The notes beneath the pieces were generated by a model. The model was not told the DNA's origin. It saw only the letters and a list, made by a program, of their open reading frames with translations, and ran no database searches. A stretch of DNA of 64,000 nucleotides, taken from contig MKTY01000014.1 of the NCBI GenBank assembly GCA_001898485.1, forward strand, positions 248,001 through 312,000. Direction: 5' to 3'. Position numbers and translations under genes: made by a program. The stretch is from Sphingobacteriales bacterium 46-32 (lineage in GTDB: Bacteria > Bacteroidota > Bacteroidia > Chitinophagales > Chitinophagaceae). This document shows positions 32,642 to 43,513 of this stretch, one piece after another. Numbering within the stretch: position 1 is the stretch's first letter; every line of letters begins with the position of its first letter.

Positions 32642-33535
32642 ATGGCATTTGAATGGAAAGGGGTTTTCCCGGCTTTGACCACAAAGTTTACGGCTGATGA
32701 TCAACTGGATCTGGATTTATTTGCAGTTAACCTGCGGGCGCAACTGGATGCCGGTGTATCCGGTATTATTTTAGGCGGTACGCTGGGAGAAGCCAGTGTG
32801 CTGACAGTAGCAGAAAAAGAGCAACTCGTTCGTTTTGCCATCGAACATAGCCAGGGCCGGCCAGTGGTGCTCAATATTGCAGAGGGAAGTACCAAAGTAG
32901 CATTGGAACAGGCAAAGCTGGCTCGTGAATGGGGCGCACAGGGATTGATGTTGCTGCCTCCCATGCGTTATAAATCTGATCATCGCGAAACGGTGACGTA
33001 TTTTCGTACGATAGCCGATTCTACGGATCTGCCGATTATGATCTATAATAATCCGGTTGATTATAAAATTGAAGTAACCATTGCTATGTTTGAGGAAATG
33101 GCCGCCAGCGCGAATATTACGGCTGTAAAAGAATCGACACGTGACGTAACCAATGTAACACGGATGCGCAATGCTTTTGGTGATCGCTATAAACTGTTGT
33201 GTGGCGTGGATACACTTGCCATGGAAGAACTGGTGCTCGGAGCAGATGGCTGGGTAGCCGGACTGGTTTGTGCATTTCCCCGCGAAACAGTGAAAATATA
33301 TGAATGGGTGAAAGCCGGAAAGATTGAAGAGGCTACAAAATTATATCGCTGGTTTATGCCTTTACTGGAATTGGATATTCATCCCAAACTGGTGCAGTAT
33401 ATCAAGCTGGCCGAAGCCGAAGTAGGCCTGGGTAGTGAACATGTGCGTCCCCCCCGACTTACCCTGGTAGGTGAGGAGCGTGCGCGTGTACTGCAGATTA
33501 TTAAAGCCGGAGTAGCAGCGCGCCCTGGGATATAA
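32642..33535 (+). CDS. DHDPS-family enzyme, probable 1-pyrroline-4-hydroxy-2-carboxylate deaminase
   Basis: This 297-residue TIM-barrel aldolase of the dihydrodipicolinate synthase/NAL superfamily has the Schiff-base Lys163 in AVKEST, Tyr135 in IMIYNNP and the GGTLGEASVL loop. True DapA is improbable in this context: the neighbours are an alpha-ketoglutarate-semialdehyde dehydrogenase-like enzyme, a hydroxyproline epimerase and a D-amino-acid dehydrogenase. In known hydroxyproline pathways a DHDPS-like deaminase converts 1-pyrroline-4-hydroxy-2-carboxylate to 2-oxoglutarate semialdehyde. It starts 42 bp downstream of a repeat island. Confidence 0.87.
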   Translation: MAFEWKGVFPALTTKFTADDQLDLDLFAVNLRAQLDAGVSGIILGGTLGEASVLTVAEKEQLVRFAIEHSQGRPVVLNIAEGSTKVALEQAKLAREWGAQGLMLLPPMRYKSDHRETVTYFRTIADSTDLPIMIYNNPVDYKIEVTIAMFEEMAASANITAVKESTRDVTNVTRMRNAFGDRYKLLCGVDTLAMEELVLGADGWVAGLVCAFPRETVKIYEWVKAGKIEEATKLYRWFMPLLELDIHPKLVQYIKLAEAEVGLGSEHVRPPRLTLVGEERARVLQIIKAGVAARPGI

Positions 33536-33561
33536 GATACTGATTGCTGAACGACCGGCTG

Positions 33562-35079
33562 ATGCCGGAAAATAATCCGAACATGATGGAATACACAGAT
33601 GCCTCGCCTGTACAGATAGAAGCAGCGATGCAGCAGGCCTGGACAGCCTTTCAAACCTATAAGAACAGTAGTCTGCAGCAGCGGGCCGATTTTATGCGTG
33701 CTATAGCCGATGAGCTGGCGCAGTCGGCAACAGAACTGGTGCATATAGCTATGGAAGAAACGCAGCTCACTGAGGCGCGGCTGCGGTCGGAGCTGGCACG
33801 TACACAGTTTCAGCTTACCAGTTATGGTGCGGCCTGCGAACGTGGTGCATGGCTCGATGTGCGTATTGACACTGCATTGCCAGACAGGCAACCTCCGCGC
33901 CCCGATATCCGCAAGATGCTGGTACCTCTAGGGCCGGTTGTTGTGTTTGGTGCGGCCAATTTCCCCTTTGCTTATTCTACAGCCGGCGGAGACACGGCCT
34001 GTGCTTTTGCAGCAGGTTGTCCCGTGATTGTAAAAGCGCATCCGGCACATGCGCGCACCAGCGAACTGGCTGCCGCCTGCATTGAGCGGGCCGCTATGAA
34101 ATGCGGCATGCCTGCGGGCATATTTGCACATTTGCATGGCGTATCAAATGAAGTTGGTAAAGCCCTGGTAGAGCATACTTATACCAGAGCTGTTGGTTTT
34201 ACCGGTTCATTTGCCGGAGGCAAACAACTTTTCGATTGGGCTAATCAGCGTAAACAACCGATTCCTGTATTTGCAGAAATGAGCAGTATTAATCCTGTTT
34301 TTCTTTTACCTGAAAAACTGGAAACAGATGGTGTAAGTGTTGCAGAGCAATATGCTGCTTCCATTACGCTGGGAGTGGGCCAGTTTTGTACTAACCCCGG
34401 TTTGCTGATAGCTGTGGCCTCTCCCGCACTGGATAATTTTATTGGTGAATTATCTGCGGCAATTCAGCGTACAGTACCTGGCACCATGTTGCATACAGGT
34501 ATATTTAAAAATTATGTGGAAAGACGTGCAATAGCCCTGTCGCAGGCCGATGTAGAAATGCTGGCCGTGTCGGCACAGGAGCCACAATACAACCAGGCTG
34601 CTGCTACGCTGGCCACCGTTCCGGCCTCCGTTTTTCTTACCAACCCCTTATTACATCAGGAAGTGTTTGGACCTTATAGTCTGCTGGTACAATGCAGCTC
34701 ACTCGATGAAATGCTGCAGGTGGCACAGGCGCTGGAAGGTCAGCTAACCACATCGGTCATTGCTACGGTTGCCGAAGCGGCTCGCCATACTGCATTGATC
34801 AATGCTATCCAGGACATCTGTGGCCGGCTGATTTTAAATGGAGTGCCAACTGGTGTGGAGGTATGCCTGAGTATGCAGCATGGTGGTCCGTTTCCTGCAA
34901 CTACTGATAGCCGTTTTTCGGCTGTAGGGGCAGATGGGATACGCCGTTTTGCCCGTCCGCTGGCTTATCAGCAATGGGACAACACGCTGTTGCCTGCTGC
35001 ATTACAGGACGAAAATCCATGGGGCATCTGGCGCACCATCAATGATGAACTGACCAAAGAGCCGGTGAAGAGAAATTAA
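33562..35079 (+). CDS. Aldehyde dehydrogenase, probable alpha-ketoglutarate-semialdehyde dehydrogenase
   Basis: This 505-residue NAD(P)-dependent aldehyde dehydrogenase has FGAANFPFAYSTAGGDTA for cofactor binding, GFTGSFAGG, the general-base region AEMSSINPVF and catalytic Cys276 in GVGQFCTNPG. The sequence matches the 2,5-dioxopentanoate dehydrogenase subgroup in layout. It would perform the last step of hydroxyproline breakdown, forming 2-oxoglutarate. ATG at 33562 is 27 bp after the deaminase stop; ATGs at 33583 and 33586 are alternatives. Its TAA abuts the stop codon of the convergent desaturase gene with no spacer. Confidence 0.9.
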   Translation: MPENNPNMMEYTDASPVQIEAAMQQAWTAFQTYKNSSLQQRADFMRAIADELAQSATELVHIAMEETQLTEARLRSELARTQFQLTSYGAACERGAWLDVRIDTALPDRQPPRPDIRKMLVPLGPVVVFGAANFPFAYSTAGGDTACAFAAGCPVIVKAHPAHARTSELAAACIERAAMKCGMPAGIFAHLHGVSNEVGKALVEHTYTRAVGFTGSFAGGKQLFDWANQRKQPIPVFAEMSSINPVFLLPEKLETDGVSVAEQYAASITLGVGQFCTNPGLLIAVASPALDNFIGELSAAIQRTVPGTMLHTGIFKNYVERRAIALSQADVEMLAVSAQEPQYNQAAATLATVPASVFLTNPLLHQEVFGPYSLLVQCSSLDEMLQVAQALEGQLTTSVIATVAEAARHTALINAIQDICGRLILNGVPTGVEVCLSMQHGGPFPATTDSRFSAVGADGIRRFARPLAYQQWDNTLLPAALQDENPWGIWRTINDELTKEPVKRN

Positions 35080-36372
35080 TTATATCGGTTGTGCGCCGGA
35101 TATTTTTACCGGCTGATCTTCCTGGTAATGTTTCCACACAAACCAGGCGGTGATAATAAACGATAGCAGCAAATATGCTCCGATAAAATACCAGGCAGGC
35201 TGCCAGAAATTGTTGATGCCAAACCAGTCATGTTGATTAATCAGGAAGGCCCCGCCCAGCAGGAGACGAATGCCTTCGGCAATGACGGCAGTACTGTTGC
35301 GATCCATCAGGTCTGTAAGCGAATAAACCGACACGAAAAGGAAACCGCCATACCAGAAGATATAAGCCGGGTTAAGGCTTTTAATAGGTGCTATTTGTCC
35401 AAACAGATAACTGGTAAACAGCAGTATGACGAATAGCTGAATCCATGCCCAGGTGCGTAATGCAGGCGAAGATGCGGGTTCGTATTTCTCAAAATTATAT
35501 ACGTCTTCGATTTTTGAAACGGGGTAGCGCGTTATCACATCTGCCGGCCGGTAGCCGGTTGGTTTGAACCATAAAAGTAATTTGTCTTTCCAGCTGCGCG
35601 TATGCCAGGCATCCTGTATCAGCAGCCATACATGCTGAAAGTTGATCCGGATCGGATTCCAGGTGCGTACCGGCCGTGTAATACCATATACAGGCGGTAC
35701 CTGGGGCAGTTCTTCCTGATAGCTGCCAAACAGTTTATCCCAAAAAATAAATATTTGCCCGTAATTCTTATCAATGTATTCGGGATTGATGGCATGGTGC
35801 ACCCGGTGATGAGAAGGTGTTACGATAATTTTTTCCAGAAAGCCCATCTTATTGATGTGTTGGGTATGATACCAGAATTGGGCAAACAGATGCAGCGGGG
35901 CTACTATTGCGATTACTTTTTCAGGGATACCCAATAGGGCTGCGGGTAAAAGGAATATGGCAAATATGCGCACTACGGTAGAAACGCTTTGCCTGAGCGC
36001 GCAGGCCAGGTTGAAATCTTCGCTGCTGTGATGAATAATATGGCCATTCCAGAAAAAATTATATACATGCTGTACACGATGTACCCAATAGCCGGCCAGG
36101 TCGAGTGCAATGAAGGCGATTATATAAACCAGCACAGATGATTCGATGTGCACCAGGGCCAGGTGGCGCACCAGCCAGGGATAGGCGAGGATAGCCAGAC
36201 TCAGACCCAGTACATCTTTTGTCACGTTTGTGATACCCGAACTGAGGCTGGATATCATATCCATGGTTCGTACGGTATCGCGCTTTTTTTTCCAGCCATA
36301 CCATTTTTCAAATAATACGAGCGCCAGGAATAGCGGCATCGCAATCAGTAGTATCTTTCCGTACATTTCCAT
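35080..36372 (-). CDS. Sterol desaturase / fatty acid hydroxylase family membrane protein
   Basis: This 430-residue integral membrane di-iron oxygenase family protein has the histidine clusters HRVQH (about residue 98), HIIHHSS (about 111) and HHRVHH (about 190) with KNYGQIFIFWDKLFGSY. The C-terminal 130 residues contain about four more membrane segments, making the protein longer than typical sterol desaturases and similar in layout to alkylglycerol monooxygenase (TMEM195). It lies inside the hydroxyproline island on the opposite strand. Its start is 37 bp from the divergent epimerase start, and its stop touches the aldehyde dehydrogenase stop. Confidence 0.9.
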   Translation of the reverse strand: MEMYGKILLIAMPLFLALVLFEKWYGWKKKRDTVRTMDMISSLSSGITNVTKDVLGLSLAILAYPWLVRHLALVHIESSVLVYIIAFIALDLAGYWVHRVQHVYNFFWNGHIIHHSSEDFNLACALRQSVSTVVRIFAIFLLPAALLGIPEKVIAIVAPLHLFAQFWYHTQHINKMGFLEKIIVTPSHHRVHHAINPEYIDKNYGQIFIFWDKLFGSYQEELPQVPPVYGITRPVRTWNPIRINFQHVWLLIQDAWHTRSWKDKLLLWFKPTGYRPADVITRYPVSKIEDVYNFEKYEPASSPALRTWAWIQLFVILLFTSYLFGQIAPIKSLNPAYIFWYGGFLFVSVYSLTDLMDRNSTAVIAEGIRLLLGGAFLINQHDWFGINNFWQPAWYFIGAYLLLSFIITAWFVWKHYQEDQPVKISGAQPI

Positions 36373-36409
36373 AGCAAAACAATCTGTAACCGAATTTACA
36401 AAATATCTG

Positions 36410-37426
36410 ATGAAGCATCTATTTCATTGCATTGATGCACATACCTGCGGTAATCCTGTACGCCTGGTAAAAGAAGGCGGTCCCGCACTGGAGGGCCTGA
36501 ACATGAGTGAAAAACGCCAGCATTTTCTCCGGCAGTATGACTGGATCCGCACTGGTCTTATGTTTGAGCCGAGAGGGCATGATATGATGAGCGGCAGCAT
36601 TTTATATGCGCCTCATGATCCCGCCAATGACGTGGCTGTATTATTTATCGAAACCAGTGGCTGCCTGCCTATGTGTGGCCACGGCACCATCGGTACTATT
36701 ACTATTGCTATCGAGGAGGGCCTGATAAAACCCAAAGTTCCGGGACGTGTGCGGATGGAAGCACCAGCCGGCCTGGTAGAAATTTCCTACGAACAGACCG
36801 CTACAGCAGATGGACGTGTGAAAGTAAAAAGTGTGCAACTGACCAACGTGGCATCCTTTCTGTATGCCACAGAATTGACTGCGGAATGTCCAGATCTGGG
36901 CGAACTGGTAGTGGATGTAAGCTATGGCGGAAATTTTTATGCTATTGTAGATGTACAGAAAAATTTTCCCGGACTGGAACATTACAGTGCTGATAAACTC
37001 ATTGTCTGGGCTCGTGCATTGCGTAAGGCGATCAATGATAAATTTGAATTTGTTCATCCCGATAATGAAACCATTCGCGGGTGTTCGCATATTTTATGGA
37101 CAGGTGCCGTTCTGGATGCCGCCAGCACAGCGCGCAATGCGGTATTTTATGGCGATAAGGCAATCGACCGTTCCCCCTGTGGCACAGGTACCAGTGCCCG
37201 GATGGCCCAATGGTATGCCAAAGGTCTGCTGAAACCCGGAGACGCATTTGTGCATGAAAGCATTATTGGCAGTAAATTCACTGGCCGTATTGCCGAAGAA
37301 ACTTCCGTAGCCGGCCGCCCTGCTATTCGTCCTTCTATTGAAGGCTGGGCACGTGTATATGGGTACAATAGCATCTGGATAGATCCGGATGATGATCCGT
37401 ATGCATATGGCTTTCAGGTGATCTGA
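36410..37426 (+). CDS. 4-hydroxyproline 2-epimerase (proline racemase family)
   Basis: This 338-residue enzyme has both catalytic cysteines: Cys89 in MCGHGTIG and Cys257 in DRSPCGTGTSARMA. Two cysteines indicate an epimerase/racemase rather than a trans-3-hydroxyproline dehydratase, which has a Thr or Ser at one site. It should convert trans-4-hydroxy-L-proline to cis-4-hydroxy-D-proline, the first step of the pathway encoded around it. The start at 36410 (MKHLFHCIDAHTCGNPVR) matches the family; the longer frame runs back into the desaturase gene. The GH127 gene follows after 33 bp. Confidence 0.93.
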   Translation: MKHLFHCIDAHTCGNPVRLVKEGGPALEGLNMSEKRQHFLRQYDWIRTGLMFEPRGHDMMSGSILYAPHDPANDVAVLFIETSGCLPMCGHGTIGTITIAIEEGLIKPKVPGRVRMEAPAGLVEISYEQTATADGRVKVKSVQLTNVASFLYATELTAECPDLGELVVDVSYGGNFYAIVDVQKNFPGLEHYSADKLIVWARALRKAINDKFEFVHPDNETIRGCSHILWTGAVLDAASTARNAVFYGDKAIDRSPCGTGTSARMAQWYAKGLLKPGDAFVHESIIGSKFTGRIAEETSVAGRPAIRPSIEGWARVYGYNSIWIDPDDDPYAYGFQVI

Positions 37427-37459
37427 GCATTGTTTTGTGTAATAAAATATACCTCGTTG

Positions 37460-39451
37460 ATGCTAAAGATATCTCTAACGCTCCTGGCTGTACTACTAAT
37501 AGCGCCTGCAGTAAAACTGGCTGCACAGGCCCGTCAGCAGTTTGAACCGGTCAGTTTCGAACAGGTTAATATCACCGATTCATTCTGGAGGCCCAAAATC
37601 GACAAAGTAGCTACCGTAACCATGGCTGCCTGTATCTATCAGACCGAAGAGCGTACACCGCGAATCCGCAACTTTGAGAAAGTGGCACGTGCCCGTGGCG
37701 AAAAACATGAAGGCATCTATTACGATGACAGTGATGTGTACAAAGCGCTTGAAGCAATGGCCTATGCACTCAAAACGCATCCTGATGCCAAACTGGAAGC
37801 CAAGGCAGATGAATGGATCAATAAGATTGCTGCGGCACAAATGCCCGACGGATATCTGAATACCTACTATTCACTCCGTGGTATCGATAAACGCTGGACT
37901 GATGTGGAAAAGCATGAAGATTATAATGCCGGTCATTTGTTTGAAGCGGCTGTGGCTTATTACCAGGTCACCGGTAAACGCAAATTGCTGGATGTAGCTA
38001 TCCGGCTGGCCGATCATATTGACACTACTTTCAGAATACCCAACCGGCGCTGGATCAGCGGTCATGAAGAAATTGAACTGGCCCTGGTAAAATTGTATCG
38101 CGTTACGGGCACGGACCGCTATCTGAAACTGGCGCAATGGTACCTTGAGCAGCGGGGTCATCAGTTTCCATATCAGAGCACCTGGCTCACACCGGCTTAC
38201 TGGCAGGACCTGAAGCCGGTTGAAGAGCAGACAGAGATAACGGGACATGCCGTAAGAGCCATGTACCTGTATAGCGGAGCGGCCGATGTGGCGGCACTTA
38301 CCGGAAACAACAGGTATATGGGCGCTATGCAAAAAGTATGGCAGGATGTGGTAGAACGTAATATGTATATCACAGGTGGTATCGGATCTGCGGGTAGCAA
38401 TGAAGGCTTTTCGGTGGATTATGATCTGCCTAATGAACAGGCATACTGCGAAACCTGCGCCAGTGTGGGCATGGTATTCTGGAACCAGCGAATGGCACAA
38501 CTCACCGGTGATGCAAAATTTCTGGACGTACTGGAACGCAGTCTGTATAATGGTGCACTGGATGGCATCAGTCTTGCCGGCGATCGTTTTTTTTATGATA
38601 ATCCACTTGCCAGTAATGGACAGCATAGCCGTAAAGCCTGGTTTGGTACAGCCTGCTGTCCGGCCAATATAGCACGACTGGTGACCTCGCTGGGCGGATA
38701 TATTTATGGTAAAAGCGAAGAGGCCGCCTGGATTAATATGTATGTATCCAGCGATACAAAAATAAAGATGGGTAAGACAGATGTGGCGCTGAATATGCAA
38801 ACCGAATACCCCTGGAACGGAAAAATCAATCTGCGGGTTGACCCGGTGCGAAAAGTAAAGTTCAGCATCAACCTGCGTATACCGGGCTGGTGCCGTCAGG
38901 AGATTGTACCGGGCGGACTCTATTATACAACCAGTAAACCGGCTGAACAGGCGTTCAATTGTATGGTCAATGGTAAATCCGTGGCTGCACAGATCGTGAA
39001 TGGTTATATCCAGATAAACCGGGAGTGGAAAGCGGGTGATGTGCTGAGTCTTGAACTGCCGATGGAAGCGCAATGGGTACGGGCTGATGCTGCTGTAAAA
39101 GAGAATGAAGACAGGCTGGCGATACAACGCGGGCCCTTGTTATATTGTGTGGAACAAAAAGATAATCCGGAAGGAGTATGGAATATACTCGCCAGTGAAA
39201 GCTGCCGGTTTAAGCCAGTGCAGCATCAGGTGCTCGACGAAAAGGTGATCGCACTGGAGTCTGAAATGCCCACAGCTGTTCCTGATACAAACGGACAGGC
39301 GATTGTGTTAAAGAACCGGATTATTAAGGCAGTTCCTTATTATGTATGGGCCAACCGCGGCGCTAATTATATGCAGGTATGGTTGCCTACGCGTATCAAA
39401 ACAATCATGATCAATAACAATACAAACAAAGATGATGGCGGCAATTTCTAA
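37460..39451 (+). CDS. GH127 family beta-L-arabinofuranosidase, exported
   Basis: This 663-residue glycosidase has a signal peptide (LTLLAVLLIAPAVKLAAQ). The (alpha/alpha)6 barrel carries the GH127 zinc/nucleophile set: E331 and C333 in YCETCAS, and C399-C400 in ACCPAN. In HypBA1 of Bifidobacterium the equivalent E338, C340, C417 and C418 bind zinc, with C417 as nucleophile. That enzyme cleaves beta-L-Araf linkages on hydroxyproline. Here the gene sits directly behind the hydroxyproline epimerase gene and overlaps the GH5-like gene by 20 bp, so one transcript is likely. Confidence 0.92.
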   Translation: MLKISLTLLAVLLIAPAVKLAAQARQQFEPVSFEQVNITDSFWRPKIDKVATVTMAACIYQTEERTPRIRNFEKVARARGEKHEGIYYDDSDVYKALEAMAYALKTHPDAKLEAKADEWINKIAAAQMPDGYLNTYYSLRGIDKRWTDVEKHEDYNAGHLFEAAVAYYQVTGKRKLLDVAIRLADHIDTTFRIPNRRWISGHEEIELALVKLYRVTGTDRYLKLAQWYLEQRGHQFPYQSTWLTPAYWQDLKPVEEQTEITGHAVRAMYLYSGAADVAALTGNNRYMGAMQKVWQDVVERNMYITGGIGSAGSNEGFSVDYDLPNEQAYCETCASVGMVFWNQRMAQLTGDAKFLDVLERSLYNGALDGISLAGDRFFYDNPLASNGQHSRKAWFGTACCPANIARLVTSLGGYIYGKSEEAAWINMYVSSDTKIKMGKTDVALNMQTEYPWNGKINLRVDPVRKVKFSINLRIPGWCRQEIVPGGLYYTTSKPAEQAFNCMVNGKSVAAQIVNGYIQINREWKAGDVLSLELPMEAQWVRADAAVKENEDRLAIQRGPLLYCVEQKDNPEGVWNILASESCRFKPVQHQVLDEKVIALESEMPTAVPDTNGQAIVLKNRIIKAVPYYVWANRGANYMQVWLPTRIKTIMINNNTNKDDGGNF

Positions 39452-40499
39452 AAAACTGTTCGGGATCTGTTTCCTGTTGTTGCTGACTGTTGTGCTGCGG
39501 GCGCAATCAGGCTCTCAACAATGGACAGCCGAAAAAGCAAACCGTTGGTATGCGGCACAACCCTGGCTGGTAGGTGCTAATTTTCTTCCCAGTACAGCTA
39601 TTAATCAGCTGGAGATGTGGCAGGAAGCTTCCTTCGATACAGCTACCATTGCCCGCGAGCTGGGTTGGGCGGCCGGTCTCGGCATGAATGTAATGCGGGT
39701 ATACCTGCATGACCTTGCCTGGAAAGCCGATCCGGCGGGATTTAAAAACCGGATGGATCGTTTCCTGCAGATCGCTTCGTCAAAAAAGATCCGGCCATTG
39801 TTTGTCTTTTTTGATGATTGCTGGAATCCTGATGCAACAATTGGCACTCAGCCCGCACCCAGGCCCGGTATTCATAATAGTGGATGGGTGAGGAGCCCGG
39901 CCATGGGCGTGCATAATGATTCCACACAGTGGGGCTATCTGAAGGAATATGTTACTGATGTGCTTACCCGGTTTGCCAATGACTCCCGCATTCTTATGTG
40001 GGATTTGTACAATGAGCCAGGCAACAGCGGTTATAATCTGAGCTCGTTGCCGTTGCTGGAAAAAATATTTTCGTGGGCCTGGGCCGTTCGCCCTTCGCAA
40101 CCACTCACCTGCGGCACCTGGTATGACAATAAAGCTTTTAATGATTTTCAACTGGGGCATAGCGATGTCATTACCTTTCACAACTACAACGATGCTGCCA
40201 GCCTCGAAAAAGAAATAGCGGACAAAAAGAAACTGGGACGTCCATTGATCTGCACGGAATACATGGCCCGCACACGCGGAAGCCGTTTCCAAACACATCT
40301 GCCCATATTTAAAAAATATAAAGTAGGTGCCATCAACTGGGGGCTTGTTGCCGGGAAAAGCAACACTATCTATCAGTGGGATACACCAATTCCTGACGGA
40401 AGCGAACCAGCTGTCTGGTTTCACGATATTTTCCGTAAGGATGGAACACCTTATGATAAAGCGGAGACGGAGTTTATCAGAACAGTGACCGGTAGATAG
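39432..40499 (+). CDS. GH5-like (cellulase-family) glycoside hydrolase, exported
   Basis: This 355-residue protein has a signal peptide (FGICFLLLLTVVLRAQ) and a TIM barrel. Visible GH-A clan features are WDLYNEP, with the general acid/base Glu, and LICTEYMAR, with the nucleophile Glu. Length is typical for a single-domain GH5. It is related to proteins often labelled cellulase or 1,4-beta-xylanase, but the substrate is not predictable. Its start lies within the end of the GH127 gene, suggesting translational coupling and a shared glycan target. The TAG stop lies at the border of a GTGGATAG repeat. Confidence 0.85.
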   Translation: MMAAISKKLFGICFLLLLTVVLRAQSGSQQWTAEKANRWYAAQPWLVGANFLPSTAINQLEMWQEASFDTATIARELGWAAGLGMNVMRVYLHDLAWKADPAGFKNRMDRFLQIASSKKIRPLFVFFDDCWNPDATIGTQPAPRPGIHNSGWVRSPAMGVHNDSTQWGYLKEYVTDVLTRFANDSRILMWDLYNEPGNSGYNLSSLPLLEKIFSWAWAVRPSQPLTCGTWYDNKAFNDFQLGHSDVITFHNYNDAASLEKEIADKKKLGRPLICTEYMARTRGSRFQTHLPIFKKYKVGAINWGLVAGKSNTIYQWDTPIPDGSEPAVWFHDIFRKDGTPYDKAETEFIRTVTGR

Positions 40500-40592
40500 T
40501 GGACAGTGGATAGTGGATAGTTTTCTGCATCCCCACTTTCCTTTTACCCTTCGCCGCCCACCTTTATACTTTTATACCTTTAAACTTTTATA
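40498..40592. repeat. Intergenic island between the GH5-like and D-hydroxyproline dehydrogenase genes
   Basis: The left arm is GTGGACAGTGGATAGTGGAT (period 7). The right arm at 40559-40592 is CTTTATACTTTTATACC with CTTTAAAC (period 8-9). Confidence 0.78.
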
Positions 40593-40612
40593 CAGCATTA
40601 AATCTCGGTTGA

Positions 40613-41857
40613 ATGAACATAACTATTATCGGCGGGGGCATTATTGGTTTATGCACGGCTTATTATTTACGCAGAGAGGGATATGAAGTGACGGTGGTGG
40701 ATCGTCATGAATTGAAGGATGGCTGTTCATTCGGTAATATGGGATATATCTCTCCCTCACATTTTGTTCCATTGGCTACACCGGGTATCATACGCCAGGG
40801 TTTGAAATGGATGATGGATTCATCCAGCCCGTTTTATATTAAACCCCGGCTTAATATGGATCTGATCCGCTGGGGGCTGCTGTTCTCAAAAAATGCTACA
40901 GCAGCCAACGTAAAGAAAGCTGTGCCTGCCCTAAATGGGTTATTGCAGCTAAGCCGCGAACTGATGGTTGATCTGGAGCGGCAGATGCCCGAAGCATTTT
41001 CGCTGCATCAGCAGGGTTGCTGGATGTTGTACAAGCAGGAAAAAACAGGACATCATGAAAAAGAGCTCAGTGAACAGGCCAATGCATTAGGATTACGTAC
41101 CCGCATATGCACTGCAGCCGAAGTACAGGCACTGGAGCCGGAAGTGGAAGTAGATGTACTGGGTGGTGTGCTGTATGAAGATGATTGTCATGTACAGCCC
41201 GGGCAACTGATGCAGGGTTTGTATAAACAACTTTTACAACAGGGCGTCAAATTCTGGCTCAATACAGATGTGCTCAGTGTGGAAACACGGCAGGGGACTA
41301 TTACCAGGCTGATGACCAGCAAAGGAGAACTGCCCTGTGAGCAACTGGTTGTTGCCAATGGCTCCTGGATGGGATTATTTGCGAAAAAGCTGGGGTTGAA
41401 ACTTGCCATGCAGCCGGGCAAAGGATATAGTATGGAGTTTACTGATCTGAGTAAGAATCTTAAACGCCCGTCCATACTGGTCGATGACCGGGTAGCTACC
41501 ACACCTGTAGGTTCCTGGTTGCGCATTGGTGGTACGATGGAACTGAGCGGGCATAGCGAAAAAGTATTACCCCGGCGCGTAGAGGCTATTGCCCGTGCGT
41601 TTGCCCGTTATTATCCCGGTATGAACCTGCCGGCAGCAGACCCATCCCGCGCCTGGTATGGGTATCGCCCGGTGACGCCCGATGGCTTGCCCTATATAGG
41701 TGCTCATAGCCGCTATTCGAATCTTTATTTTGCAGGAGGGCATGCCATGCTGGGGGTAAGTGCCGCAACTGGCACAGGGTTACTGATTACTCAATTGCTG
41801 GGAGGAAAAAAGAGCAGTCTGCCTGTGGAGGCTTTTTCTCCTGAACGATTTAGTTAA
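40613..41857 (+). CDS. FAD-dependent D-amino-acid dehydrogenase, probable D-hydroxyproline dehydrogenase
   Basis: This 414-residue DAO-family flavoprotein starts with IIGGGIIGLCTAYYL (FAD-binding GxGxxG) followed by an acidic VVDRHE strand. DGCSFGNMGYISPSHFVPLATPG is typical of DadA-like dehydrogenases, and a second FAD contact, YFAGGHAMLGVSAATGTG, lies near the C-terminus. With the epimerase and DHDPS-like deaminase in the same island, the likely reaction is oxidation of cis-4-hydroxy-D-proline to 1-pyrroline-4-hydroxy-2-carboxylate. D-proline or another D-amino acid is the alternative substrate. Confidence 0.9.
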   Translation: MNITIIGGGIIGLCTAYYLRREGYEVTVVDRHELKDGCSFGNMGYISPSHFVPLATPGIIRQGLKWMMDSSSPFYIKPRLNMDLIRWGLLFSKNATAANVKKAVPALNGLLQLSRELMVDLERQMPEAFSLHQQGCWMLYKQEKTGHHEKELSEQANALGLRTRICTAAEVQALEPEVEVDVLGGVLYEDDCHVQPGQLMQGLYKQLLQQGVKFWLNTDVLSVETRQGTITRLMTSKGELPCEQLVVANGSWMGLFAKKLGLKLAMQPGKGYSMEFTDLSKNLKRPSILVDDRVATTPVGSWLRIGGTMELSGHSEKVLPRRVEAIARAFARYYPGMNLPAADPSRAWYGYRPVTPDGLPYIGAHSRYSNLYFAGGHAMLGVSAATGTGLLITQLLGGKKSSLPVEAFSPERFS

Positions 41858-41896
41858 AAATTTGTTGATAGGCCGGTGGCATCCCGAGAGAGTTGC

Positions 41897-41904
41897 TACT
41901 TTTA
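41897..41904 (+). promoter_or_regulatory. -7-like promoter box of bshC
   Basis: TACTTTTA is a partial TAnnTTTG match and ends 7 nt before the chosen bshC ATG. Confidence 0.35.
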
Positions 41905-41911
41905 TATTTCT

Positions 41912-43513
41912 ATGGATTGTACATCTACCCGCATTCCTTACAGGGCAACAGGCTTTTTTTCGAAGATCACGCTCGATTATGTGGATCAGGCGGCCCCTTT
42001 GCGCCCCTTTTTTGAGCATAGCAACGACTGGGCCGGCATAAAAGCCGCAATAGAAGCACGCAGCCGTTTTAAAACAAATAGAAAGGTACTGGCAGATCAA
42101 CTCGAAAAACAATACGAAGGGGTAGATACGAGCGACCGCACGCGGGAAAATATCCGCCATTTGCTGAAGGATACCACGTTTACCATCACTACAGCCCATC
42201 AGCCCAACCTGTTTACCGGTCCGCTTTATTTTATCTATAAAATCCTGCATACGGTAAGCCTGGCGGAAGCCTGCTCACAGCATTTTCCGGCTTATCATTT
42301 TGTACCAGTTTATTACATGGGTAGTGAAGATGCTGACCTCGACGAGCTGGGACATTTCTATCTAACCGGCGATAAGCATGTATGGAATACCCGTCAAACC
42401 GGTGCCGTGGGGCGGATGAAGGTTGATAAAGAATTGCTGTCGCTCATTACAGCCATAGAGGGACAATTGTCAGTACAGCCTTACGGGGAGCAACTGGTAA
42501 CATTGCTTAAGACTCATTTTATCCCCGGGGCAACTATTCAGCAGGCTACATTTGGCCTGGTAAATGCGCTCACAAAGCAATGGGGTGTGGTGGTACTGAT
42601 ACCTGACAACGCTGCGCTCAAAGAACTGATGCAGGAAGTATTTGCAGATGAATTACAGCAACAACCCTCCATAGCCCTCGTTGAAAATACAGCAGAGGCC
42701 CTGGCAACTGCCGGATACAAAGTGCAGGCCCATCCGCGCGATATCAACCTGTTTTACCTCGAAGAGGGAATCCGTAACCGGATCGAACAAACCGGTGAAA
42801 TATATGCTGTTGCCGGAACCGACATCCGCTTTACCAAAGAGGCCATGCTGTTGGAATTGAAACAGCATCCGGAACGGTTTAGCCCCAATGTAATACTGCG
42901 CGGTCTTTTCCAGGAGACTATCCTGCCTAATATTGCCTTTATAGGAGGCGGAGGAGAAACTGCCTATTGGCTGCAGTTACGTTCTTTATTTACACATTAT
43001 AAAACGCCCTATCCTGTTTTGATCCTTCGCAATTCTTTTATGTTGCTCGAAGAGAAGTGGAAGGAGAAGATTATCCGGCTTGGATTTTCGCCTGTTGATC
43101 TTTTTAAACCGGCAGATGTGTTGCTCAACATGCTCGTAAACAGGGAAACGGAGCATCAGCTGAAACTGAATGGCAGTCTCGAAGAGGCCCGTCGCTTATA
43201 TGAACAATTAAAAAAACAGGCCGGAGCAATTGATGCCACACTTGTAGCCCATGTGGAGGCGCTGGAAACAAAAGCAGTGTATCGCCTGCAGGAGCTGGAA
43301 AAGAAAATGCTGCGTGCGGAGAAAAGAAAGTTTGCCAGTCAGCAACATCAATTGCAAACCATTCGCCAGGAACTTTTCCCCGGAGGCGGATTGCAGGAAC
43401 GCACAGAAAGTTTCATGCAGTATTATGCCAAATGGGGACAGTCATTTATAGAGGCTCTGTATCAGCATTCGCTCAGCGTGGAGCAGGAGTTTGTAATAGT
43501 AGAGATGAAGTAG
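41912..43513 (+). CDS. bshC: Bacillithiol biosynthesis cysteine-adding enzyme BshC
   Basis: This 533-residue protein is the last enzyme of bacillithiol synthesis, adding cysteine to GlcN-malate. Recognisable blocks are TAHQPNLFTGPLYFIYKI (residues about 88-105, with the HxxN nucleotidyl-transferase-like signature), YYMGSEDADLDELGHF and the IGGGGETAYWLQL loop. A C-terminal coiled coil (residues about 420-490) is characteristic of BshC. The start at 41912 was taken because a -7-like box precedes it; a longer frame adds 12 residues. The stop is followed at once by a repeat island. bshA and bshB are not in the window. Confidence 0.95.
   Translation: MDCTSTRIPYRATGFFSKITLDYVDQAAPLRPFFEHSNDWAGIKAAIEARSRFKTNRKVLADQLEKQYEGVDTSDRTRENIRHLLKDTTFTITTAHQPNLFTGPLYFIYKILHTVSLAEACSQHFPAYHFVPVYYMGSEDADLDELGHFYLTGDKHVWNTRQTGAVGRMKVDKELLSLITAIEGQLSVQPYGEQLVTLLKTHFIPGATIQQATFGLVNALTKQWGVVVLIPDNAALKELMQEVFADELQQQPSIALVENTAEALATAGYKVQAHPRDINLFYLEEGIRNRIEQTGEIYAVAGTDIRFTKEAMLLELKQHPERFSPNVILRGLFQETILPNIAFIGGGGETAYWLQLRSLFTHYKTPYPVLILRNSFMLLEEKWKEKIIRLGFSPVDLFKPADVLLNMLVNRETEHQLKLNGSLEEARRLYEQLKKQAGAIDATLVAHVEALETKAVYRLQELEKKMLRAEKRKFASQQHQLQTIRQELFPGGGLQERTESFMQYYAKWGQSFIEALYQHSLSVEQEFVIVEMK

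Follow-up and report, generated by a model that had tools for sequence, protein, structure and literature searches.

Extensins and other hydroxyproline-rich glycoproteins (HRGPs) are major wall proteins that resist proteolysis. Extensins carry alpha-linked galactose on serine, and HypBA1 is an enzyme that acts on Araf-beta1,2-Araf (Araf, arabinofuranose). We found little on how bacteria recycle the hydroxyproline (Hyp) of HRGPs, and the cluster described here offers a short list of candidate enzymes. It lies in a stretch of 64,000 nt from contig MKTY01000014.1 (G000:C14:248001-312000, hereafter the window) of a 5.49-Mb Chitinophagaceae genome, where genes for Hyp catabolism stand together with two glycosidase genes. 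We consider it probable that these genes make up a nutrient-utilisation operon for HRGP fragments. This reading builds on gene families, active-site residues and a conserved neighbourhood, from which we infer the substrate, export, the order of the steps and co-regulation.

In Bifidobacterium longum, HypBA1, HypBA2 and HypAA are reported to act together with an ABC transporter on the beta-arabino-oligosaccharides of HRGPs (PMC7263609, PMC10850190, PMC6085000). The Hyp-linked chain is described as Araf-alpha1,3-Araf-beta1,2-Araf-beta1,2-Araf-beta-Hyp, in which an alpha1,3-Araf caps Ara4-Hyp, and its last bond, Araf-beta-Hyp, is reportedly cut by two GH146 members, Bll4HypBA1 and XeHypBA1, the latter assigned to GH127 in the older paper (PMC10850190, PMC6085000). 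The window cluster resembles the B. longum cluster in that its GH127 enzyme shares the zinc and substrate residues of HypBA1 and may likewise remove Hyp-linked beta-arabinofuranosides, but in B. longum it is the sugar that is reported as nutrient, whereas the window cluster contains Hyp catabolic genes. GH121 was not seen in Pfam scans of the cluster members, among which no search was aimed at that family. In Xanthomonas euvesicatoria, XeHypBA1, XeHypBA2 and XeHypAA act on the Ara4-Hyp of HRGPs; a broken prolyl oligopeptidase gene adjoins, and L-arabinose is not usable by the bacterium (PMC6085000). This system differs from ours in that the word 'epimerase' is absent from the main text of that paper, and the portions of it available to us mention no Hyp catabolic genes. 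The presence of HRGP arabinosidases in Xanthomonas, which is unable to use L-arabinose, is raised as a question in the same paper. If our reading is true, the bacterium may be after the amino acid, which would be a possible reason why L-arabinose non-users keep such enzymes.

From the other side, the four Hyp enzymes of the window correspond to clusters described around trans-4-hydroxyproline 2-epimerase, in which HypE, a DAAO-type oxidase, a DHDPS-type deaminase and an aldehyde dehydrogenase are encoded together and form a pathway that yields 2-oxoglutarate (PMC4113996). Transporters and regulators are listed for these clusters; 'glycoside' does not occur in the portion of that text available to us. 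An earlier in silico proposal for Latescibacteria connected GH127 with extensin use, but differs from ours in that its accessible text draws no link to Hyp catabolism (PMC4454575). We found no report of a joint operon of GH127 or other glycosidases with Hyp catabolism in the portions available to us of the open-licence literature.

The initial annotation of this DNA had proposed an island of four Hyp enzymes, a GH127 enzyme and a GH5-like enzyme. When the eight genes of 32642-43513 were scanned with Pfam and NCBIfam, all six were recovered in place, on the forward strand. They encode a DHDPS-family protein (32642-33535; PF00701, 179 bits), the candidate 1-pyrroline-4-hydroxy-2-carboxylate deaminase of the third step of trans-4-Hyp degradation; 8 bases further on, an aldehyde dehydrogenase (33544-35079; PF00171, 150 bits), the putative 2-oxoglutarate semialdehyde dehydrogenase of the fourth; the 4-hydroxyproline epimerase HypE of the first (36410-37426; NF010578, 573 bits against a cut-off of 376); GH127, a predicted beta-L-arabinofuranosidase that is probably exported (37430-39451; PF07944, PF20736 and PF20737); a clan GH-A (GH5/GH2-like) hydrolase, probably exported as well (39432-40499; PF02836 and PF00150 matches, weak but above the cut-offs), whose gene overlaps that of GH127 by 20 bases, as had been noticed before; and a DadA-like FAD oxidase/dehydrogenase (40613-41857; PF01266, 227.5 bits), the likely enzyme of the second step, oxidation of cis-4-hydroxy-D-proline. 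The island has to be corrected in one respect, as a fatty-acid-hydroxylase gene on the opposite strand (35080-36372) divides the genes into two same-strand blocks, DHDPS-aldehyde dehydrogenase and HypE-GH127-GH5-like-DadA-bshC. The arrangement is similar to the polysaccharide utilisation loci of Bacteroidetes, where exported glycosidases for one plant glycan are clustered. It is unlike them in that Pfam recognises neither SusC nor SusD, and hence no adjacent pair of the two, among the eight genes, and in that the unit ends in amino-acid catabolism.

That sugar-removing and Hyp-using parts belong together, as was first suggested from the window, is supported by their conserved adjacency in the family; a lack of such adjacency, set at the outset as grounds for refutation, was looked for and did not emerge. 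HypE (E <=1e-100) is present in 137 of 294 Chitinophagaceae genomes and GH127 (E <=1e-130) in 134 of 294 among the matches listed, which include every GH127 at 53-100% identity and leave out the weakest. GH127 proteins of this 53-100% group, here called clade A and set apart from paralogues at 39-46%, occur in 70 genomes. In 32 of these the gene lies within 20 kb of HypE, which is upstream on the same strand in 31 of the 32, with a gap below 200 bases in 15. Genome G001 is a possible 33rd case, its contig ending inside a HypE fragment. The nearest relative of the window GH127 among the named records found, 95% identical, is on a contig of a Chitinophagaceae metagenome-assembled genome (MAG; L176). 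The cultured Lacibacter luteus TTM-7 (L208) has the order AraC | DHDPS-ALDH-BNR-HypE-GH127-GH146-like-DadA (ALDH, aldehyde dehydrogenase). At one locus (L042; G002:C26:112504-114487) the GH127 adjoining HypE is carried by two abutting open reading frames, in the manner of a frameshift.

A census of HypE neighbours gave a similar picture. We fetched 137 HypE loci, many ending at contig ends, and scored 136 (L150 was excluded because its HypE reading frame had been missed); at many of them the sequence stops short of 8 kb on one side, so the counts come out lower. The neighbour families counted at all loci had been drawn up on the first 61. The choice of names is therefore partly circular, whereas their identities, which come from Pfam scans of representatives and PDB matches, are not; 'GH127' here means any protein of at least 100 bits that scores best to the GH127 profile, some paralogues included. 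Within 8 kb of HypE we count DadA at 104 loci, DHDPS at 103 and aldehyde dehydrogenase at 97, followed by an AraC regulator (40), GH127 (38), a GH146-like protein (27), SMP30-like (19), amino-acid permease (14), BNR propeller (12), aldose epimerase (11), GH5-like (10), six-hairpin GtaA-type (10), GFO/IDH/MocA (9), GH51 (6), DUF885 (5), an alpha-galactosidase-like (melibiase-like) protein (4) and GH95 (4). The GH146-like gene matches PDB entry 5opj with 498 bits, and the melibiase-like gene matches alpha-galactosidases. A GH127- or GH146-type gene is present at 50 of the 136 loci, where 1.6-3.2 would be expected if 3-6 GH127-type genes, the number assumed for a 4.7-Mb genome, were placed uniformly, related genomes not being independent. 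The 50 loci span 26 of the 58 genera that have HypE, as read from our tables. Across the class, HypE was found in 40 of 395 genomes, 35 of them in other families, and 7 of these 35 loci have a GH127-type gene (PF07944 search) within 8 kb, against 0.22 expected from uniform placement; this pairing was made by coordinates only, with fragments merged and rows below 30 bits left out unless they were fragments of a stronger gene. The pairings in other families suggest that the combination has been assembled repeatedly.

HypE and DadA are on one strand at 105 loci, and a GH127- or GH146-type gene stands between them at 35 of these. The junction is empty at 50 loci; at the remaining 55 it contains 114 genes in total, 69 of them from glycosidase families: GH127 (29), GH146-like (21), GH5-like (10), GH51 (4), melibiase-like (3), GH95 (1) and GH3 (1). 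Aldose epimerase (11) and six-hairpin GtaA-type proteins (9) come next. The junction is strongly biased to glycosidases, but not exclusive to them. It could be argued that chance insertion placed the glycosidases in an operon that uses the Hyp of collagen or another protein, since 50 of the 105 junctions contain nothing and many loci have the Hyp route by itself. We find this highly improbable, given the excess of pairings over expectation both inside and outside the family; related genomes are not independent, yet 26 genera are involved.

Two junction families deserve separate mention. The six-hairpin GtaA-type protein (PF16335, DUF5127, DUF4964) occurs at 9 of the 105 junctions, for example at L032, L034, L036, L074 and L076, and a PDB sequence search returned no solved relative for it; like the clan GH-A hydrolase of the window, it becomes a candidate HRGP glycosidase by association. 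A Lactamase_B_2-type protein lies in four junctions (L106, L107, L120 and L122).

The GH127 enzyme itself contains all three domains of its family (PF07944, 364 bits; PF20736, 81; PF20737, 80), and its start is more likely the ATG at 37460 than the TTG at 37430. Numbered from this ATG, the zinc motif Glu-x-Cys ... Cys-Cys is found as E331, C333, C399 and C400, which are invariant in an alignment of 11 sequences, the eleventh row being half of a split gene. These residues align to the zinc site of HypBA1, and the Glu-x-Cys/Cys-Cys arrangement with a cysteine nucleophile is present. The zinc ligands of a GH146 enzyme are reported as identical to those of HypBA1, and R273, H194, H142 and Y145 are named as substrate residues of HypBA1 (PMC10850190). 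Counted along the alignment, they correspond to R266, H202, H152 and Y155 of the window protein, which are nearly invariant in the same alignment, where the eleventh row is without this half. The likeness to HypBA1 on which the first interpretation drew thus holds for the active site and less so overall: the closest solved structures are 6ex6 (552 bits), presumably Bacteroides BT3674, and 4qjy (464), ahead of HypBA1 itself (3wkw, 342). On these sequence features, assignment as a retaining beta-L-arabinofuranosidase is well supported, and the same support does not extend to its linkage and aglycone. Identity as an aceric acid hydrolase was considered and rejected, since the protein scores 449.6 bits with NF049879, less than half of the cut-off of 950.

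The signal peptides proposed for GH127 and the GH5-like protein found partial backing. Both proteins have a hydrophobic N-terminus with an AxA-like site and are positive by a home-made rule that asks for a strong N-terminal hydrophobic segment followed by such a site. Among relatives near HypE the rule is positive for 40 of 48 GH127, 14 of 14 GH5-like and 0 of 136 HypE proteins, and it is indicative only, being also positive for 110 of 115 DadA proteins, in which a nucleotide-binding fold forms the N-terminus.

Several observations weigh against an operon dedicated to HRGP fragments. In 38 of the 70 genomes with clade-A GH127 there is no HypE within 20 kb: 17, G001 included, give no HypE hit, in 15 HypE is on a different contig, and in 6 the distance is larger. 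Conversely, GH127 and GH146 are missing within 8 kb at 86 of 136 HypE loci, some on short contigs, so the Hyp route must often be used without them. At the junctions, 25 of the 114 genes are neither glycosidase, aldose epimerase nor six-hairpin, namely GFO/IDH/MocA (8), amino-acid permease (5), YCII (4, three of them assigned by cluster membership), Lactamase_B_2 (4) and four singletons (beta-lactamase family, DinB, DUF5615 and peptidase M61). No peptidase or amino-acid importer was recognised among the eight scanned genes of 32642-43513. A scan of named genomes gave at least 583 loci of the GH127 group; of the 80 best, 21 have HypE, and the loci without it include Spirosoma, Dyadobacter, Larkinella and Cyclobacteriaceae. 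A SusC/SusD pair stands beside the GH127 group at L188 (Spirosoma) and L205 (Dyadobacter), and a Cytophagales MAG (L206), again without HypE, has GH51, GH127 and a GH146-like gene in that order, followed by genes for an AraR-like regulator, FGGY kinase, class II aldolase and L-arabinose isomerase. These three loci were checked with Pfam; elsewhere SusC/SusD and arabinose genes were called by length. Because of the arabinose-operon order at L206, the enzymes of the GH127 group appear to go with L-arabinose, which supports arabinose as their product. Finally, on a quick GH127 tree with some long branches, and with some loci ended by contig ends, the label 'adjacent to HypE' changes 17 times, at least 11 of them forced, against a mean of 36.1 after shuffling (0 of 500 as low). 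This rules out HypE adjacency as the mark of one Hyp-specific GH127 clade; judged from these sequences, the association is a repeated one. Together, the tree and the SusC/SusD and arabinose contexts without HypE indicate a general arabinosidase that has repeatedly been drawn into the Hyp operon and is not restricted to Hyp.

The same contexts, and the fact that 6ex6 and not HypBA1 is the closest solved relative, would fit glycosidases that act on pectic arabinan or other arabinosides, with the Hyp genes nearby through the same plant wall and no shared molecule. We regard this as unlikely, though not negligibly so, since a common habitat would not by itself lead one to expect 69 glycosidases among the 114 junction genes, and since a GH146-like gene takes the same place where clade-A GH127 is absent, for example at L061 and L066.

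HypE has 338 residues from its start at 36410, and both cysteines pointed out earlier, Cys89 and Cys257, are there; with NF010578 above its cut-off and the two catalytic cysteines, the protein has the features of a 4-hydroxyproline 2-epimerase. A longer reading frame from 36230 is unlikely because it overlaps the opposite-strand gene. Its scores with the t3HypD models stay below the cut-offs (259 against 540 bits and 201 against 550). HypE is the sole match to the proline-racemase family in its genome. The DHDPS-family protein stays under the DapA cut-off of NCBIfam (150.7 against 206 bits), and a second, stronger DHDPS gene lies at G000:C14:146092, so the window gene need not be DapA. For the aldehyde dehydrogenase, none of the 25 NCBIfam models shown reached its cut-off.

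The deaminase and the aldehyde dehydrogenase could also serve a non-phosphorylative (Weimberg-type) L-arabinose route, arabinose and Hyp converging on 2-oxoglutarate semialdehyde, and GFO/IDH/MocA, aldose epimerase and SMP30-like genes do occur within 8 kb of HypE at 9, 11 and 19 of the 136 loci. All three are absent among the eight window genes. The genome has a single ILVD/EDD gene, which leaves no second member of the family to act as arabonate dehydratase, and it has an L-arabinose isomerase gene, araA (G000:C7:120988), so that we attach very little weight to this route; freed arabinose can take the usual one. Two more GH127/146-type genes lie at C7:125950 and 128521, some 4-8 kb from araA, and G000:C7:120988-129666 (L028 covers 124333-129294) can thus be counted as another arabinoside locus of this genome. 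Its GH127/146-type genes may supply the GH146 step that is missing from the window operon.

If the genes do serve HRGP fragments, we envisage the following order of events. Exported glycosidases, in the window GH127 and the clan GH-A enzyme and in relatives additionally GH146-like, GH51, alpha-galactosidase-like, GH95 and GH3 enzymes, would strip the Hyp residues, and perhaps also the Ser residues, of extensins or other HRGPs from plants or algae of their arabinofuranose and other sugars. Trans-4-hydroxy-L-proline, released by peptidases with genes at other loci, would then be taken up by the cell, where HypE would epimerise it, the DadA-like enzyme oxidise it and the DHDPS-family protein deaminate it. 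The aldehyde dehydrogenase would convert the product to 2-oxoglutarate, while freed arabinose would enter the isomerase route (araA). The recruited families match the reported glycan chemistry of HRGPs, by analogy, in that GH51, GH127, GH146-like and alpha-galactosidase-like enzymes could strip the Hyp chains and the Ser-linked galactose down to bare Hyp; the melibiase-like gene would suit the Ser-alpha-Gal of extensins. Whether this amounts to a distinct type of operon that consumes the whole glycoamino acid, with exported arabinosidases swapped between HypE and DadA by lineage, the exposed Hyp going to 2-oxoglutarate and the protein part of the HRGP as the prize, we hold to be evenly balanced.

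Extensin in particular, which had been named as the substrate, is not separable from other HRGPs, as these also carry arabinosylated Hyp. In place of higher-plant extensin, the target could be another Hyp-glycan, for example that of green-algal HRGPs, arabinosylated peptides, lectins or arabinogalactan proteins, a possibility that overlaps with our preferred reading and that we entertain only tentatively. HypE loci that, to judge by their record titles, come from groundwater and apparently lake samples (L187, L218) would fit it, and beta-Araf is reported on arabinogalactan proteins too (PMC10850190). On the other hand, use of arabinogalactan proteins should bring galactanases, and no galactanase family is found at the HypE-DadA junctions; the melibiase-like gene, near HypE at 4 of 136 loci, would also speak for extensins.

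The GH5-like gene as a regular partner was not supported, since it is near HypE at only 10 of 136 loci. Its protein gives weak Pfam matches to both the GH2 TIM barrel (PF02836, 30.5 bits) and Cellulase (PF00150, 27.0 bits against a cut-off of 23.5), and such weak matches recur among its 7 homologues, all of which match the GH2 barrel while 6 match GH5. An AlphaFold model built from 7 sequences is barrel-like (mean predicted local distance difference test score 74.5; predicted template modelling score 0.78) and matches GH2 beta-glucuronidases and GH5 mannanases with query template modelling scores of about 0.5. E195, within an invariant Asn-Glu-Pro, and E276 are invariant in the 7 sequences; counted on the model, E195 follows the fourth barrel strand and E276 lies in the seventh, presumably the positions of the catalytic pair in clan GH-A enzymes. 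The model thus points to E195 and E276 as the probable catalytic glutamates, and the protein is likely a member of clan GH-A, with likeness to both GH5 and GH2.

The gene that divides the two blocks encodes a fatty-acid-hydroxylase-family protein (reverse strand; PF04116, 96 bits) and is a frequent neighbour of HypE, found within 8 kb at 44 of 136 loci. The bacillithiol biosynthesis gene bshC (41876-43513, forward strand; TIGR03998, 401 bits against a cut-off of 266) starts 18 bases past DadA. It is a common neighbour that we do not think part of the Hyp pathway; its presence within 8 kb of HypE at 41 of 136 loci could reflect a link between Hyp catabolism and bacillithiol, or merely an old gene order.

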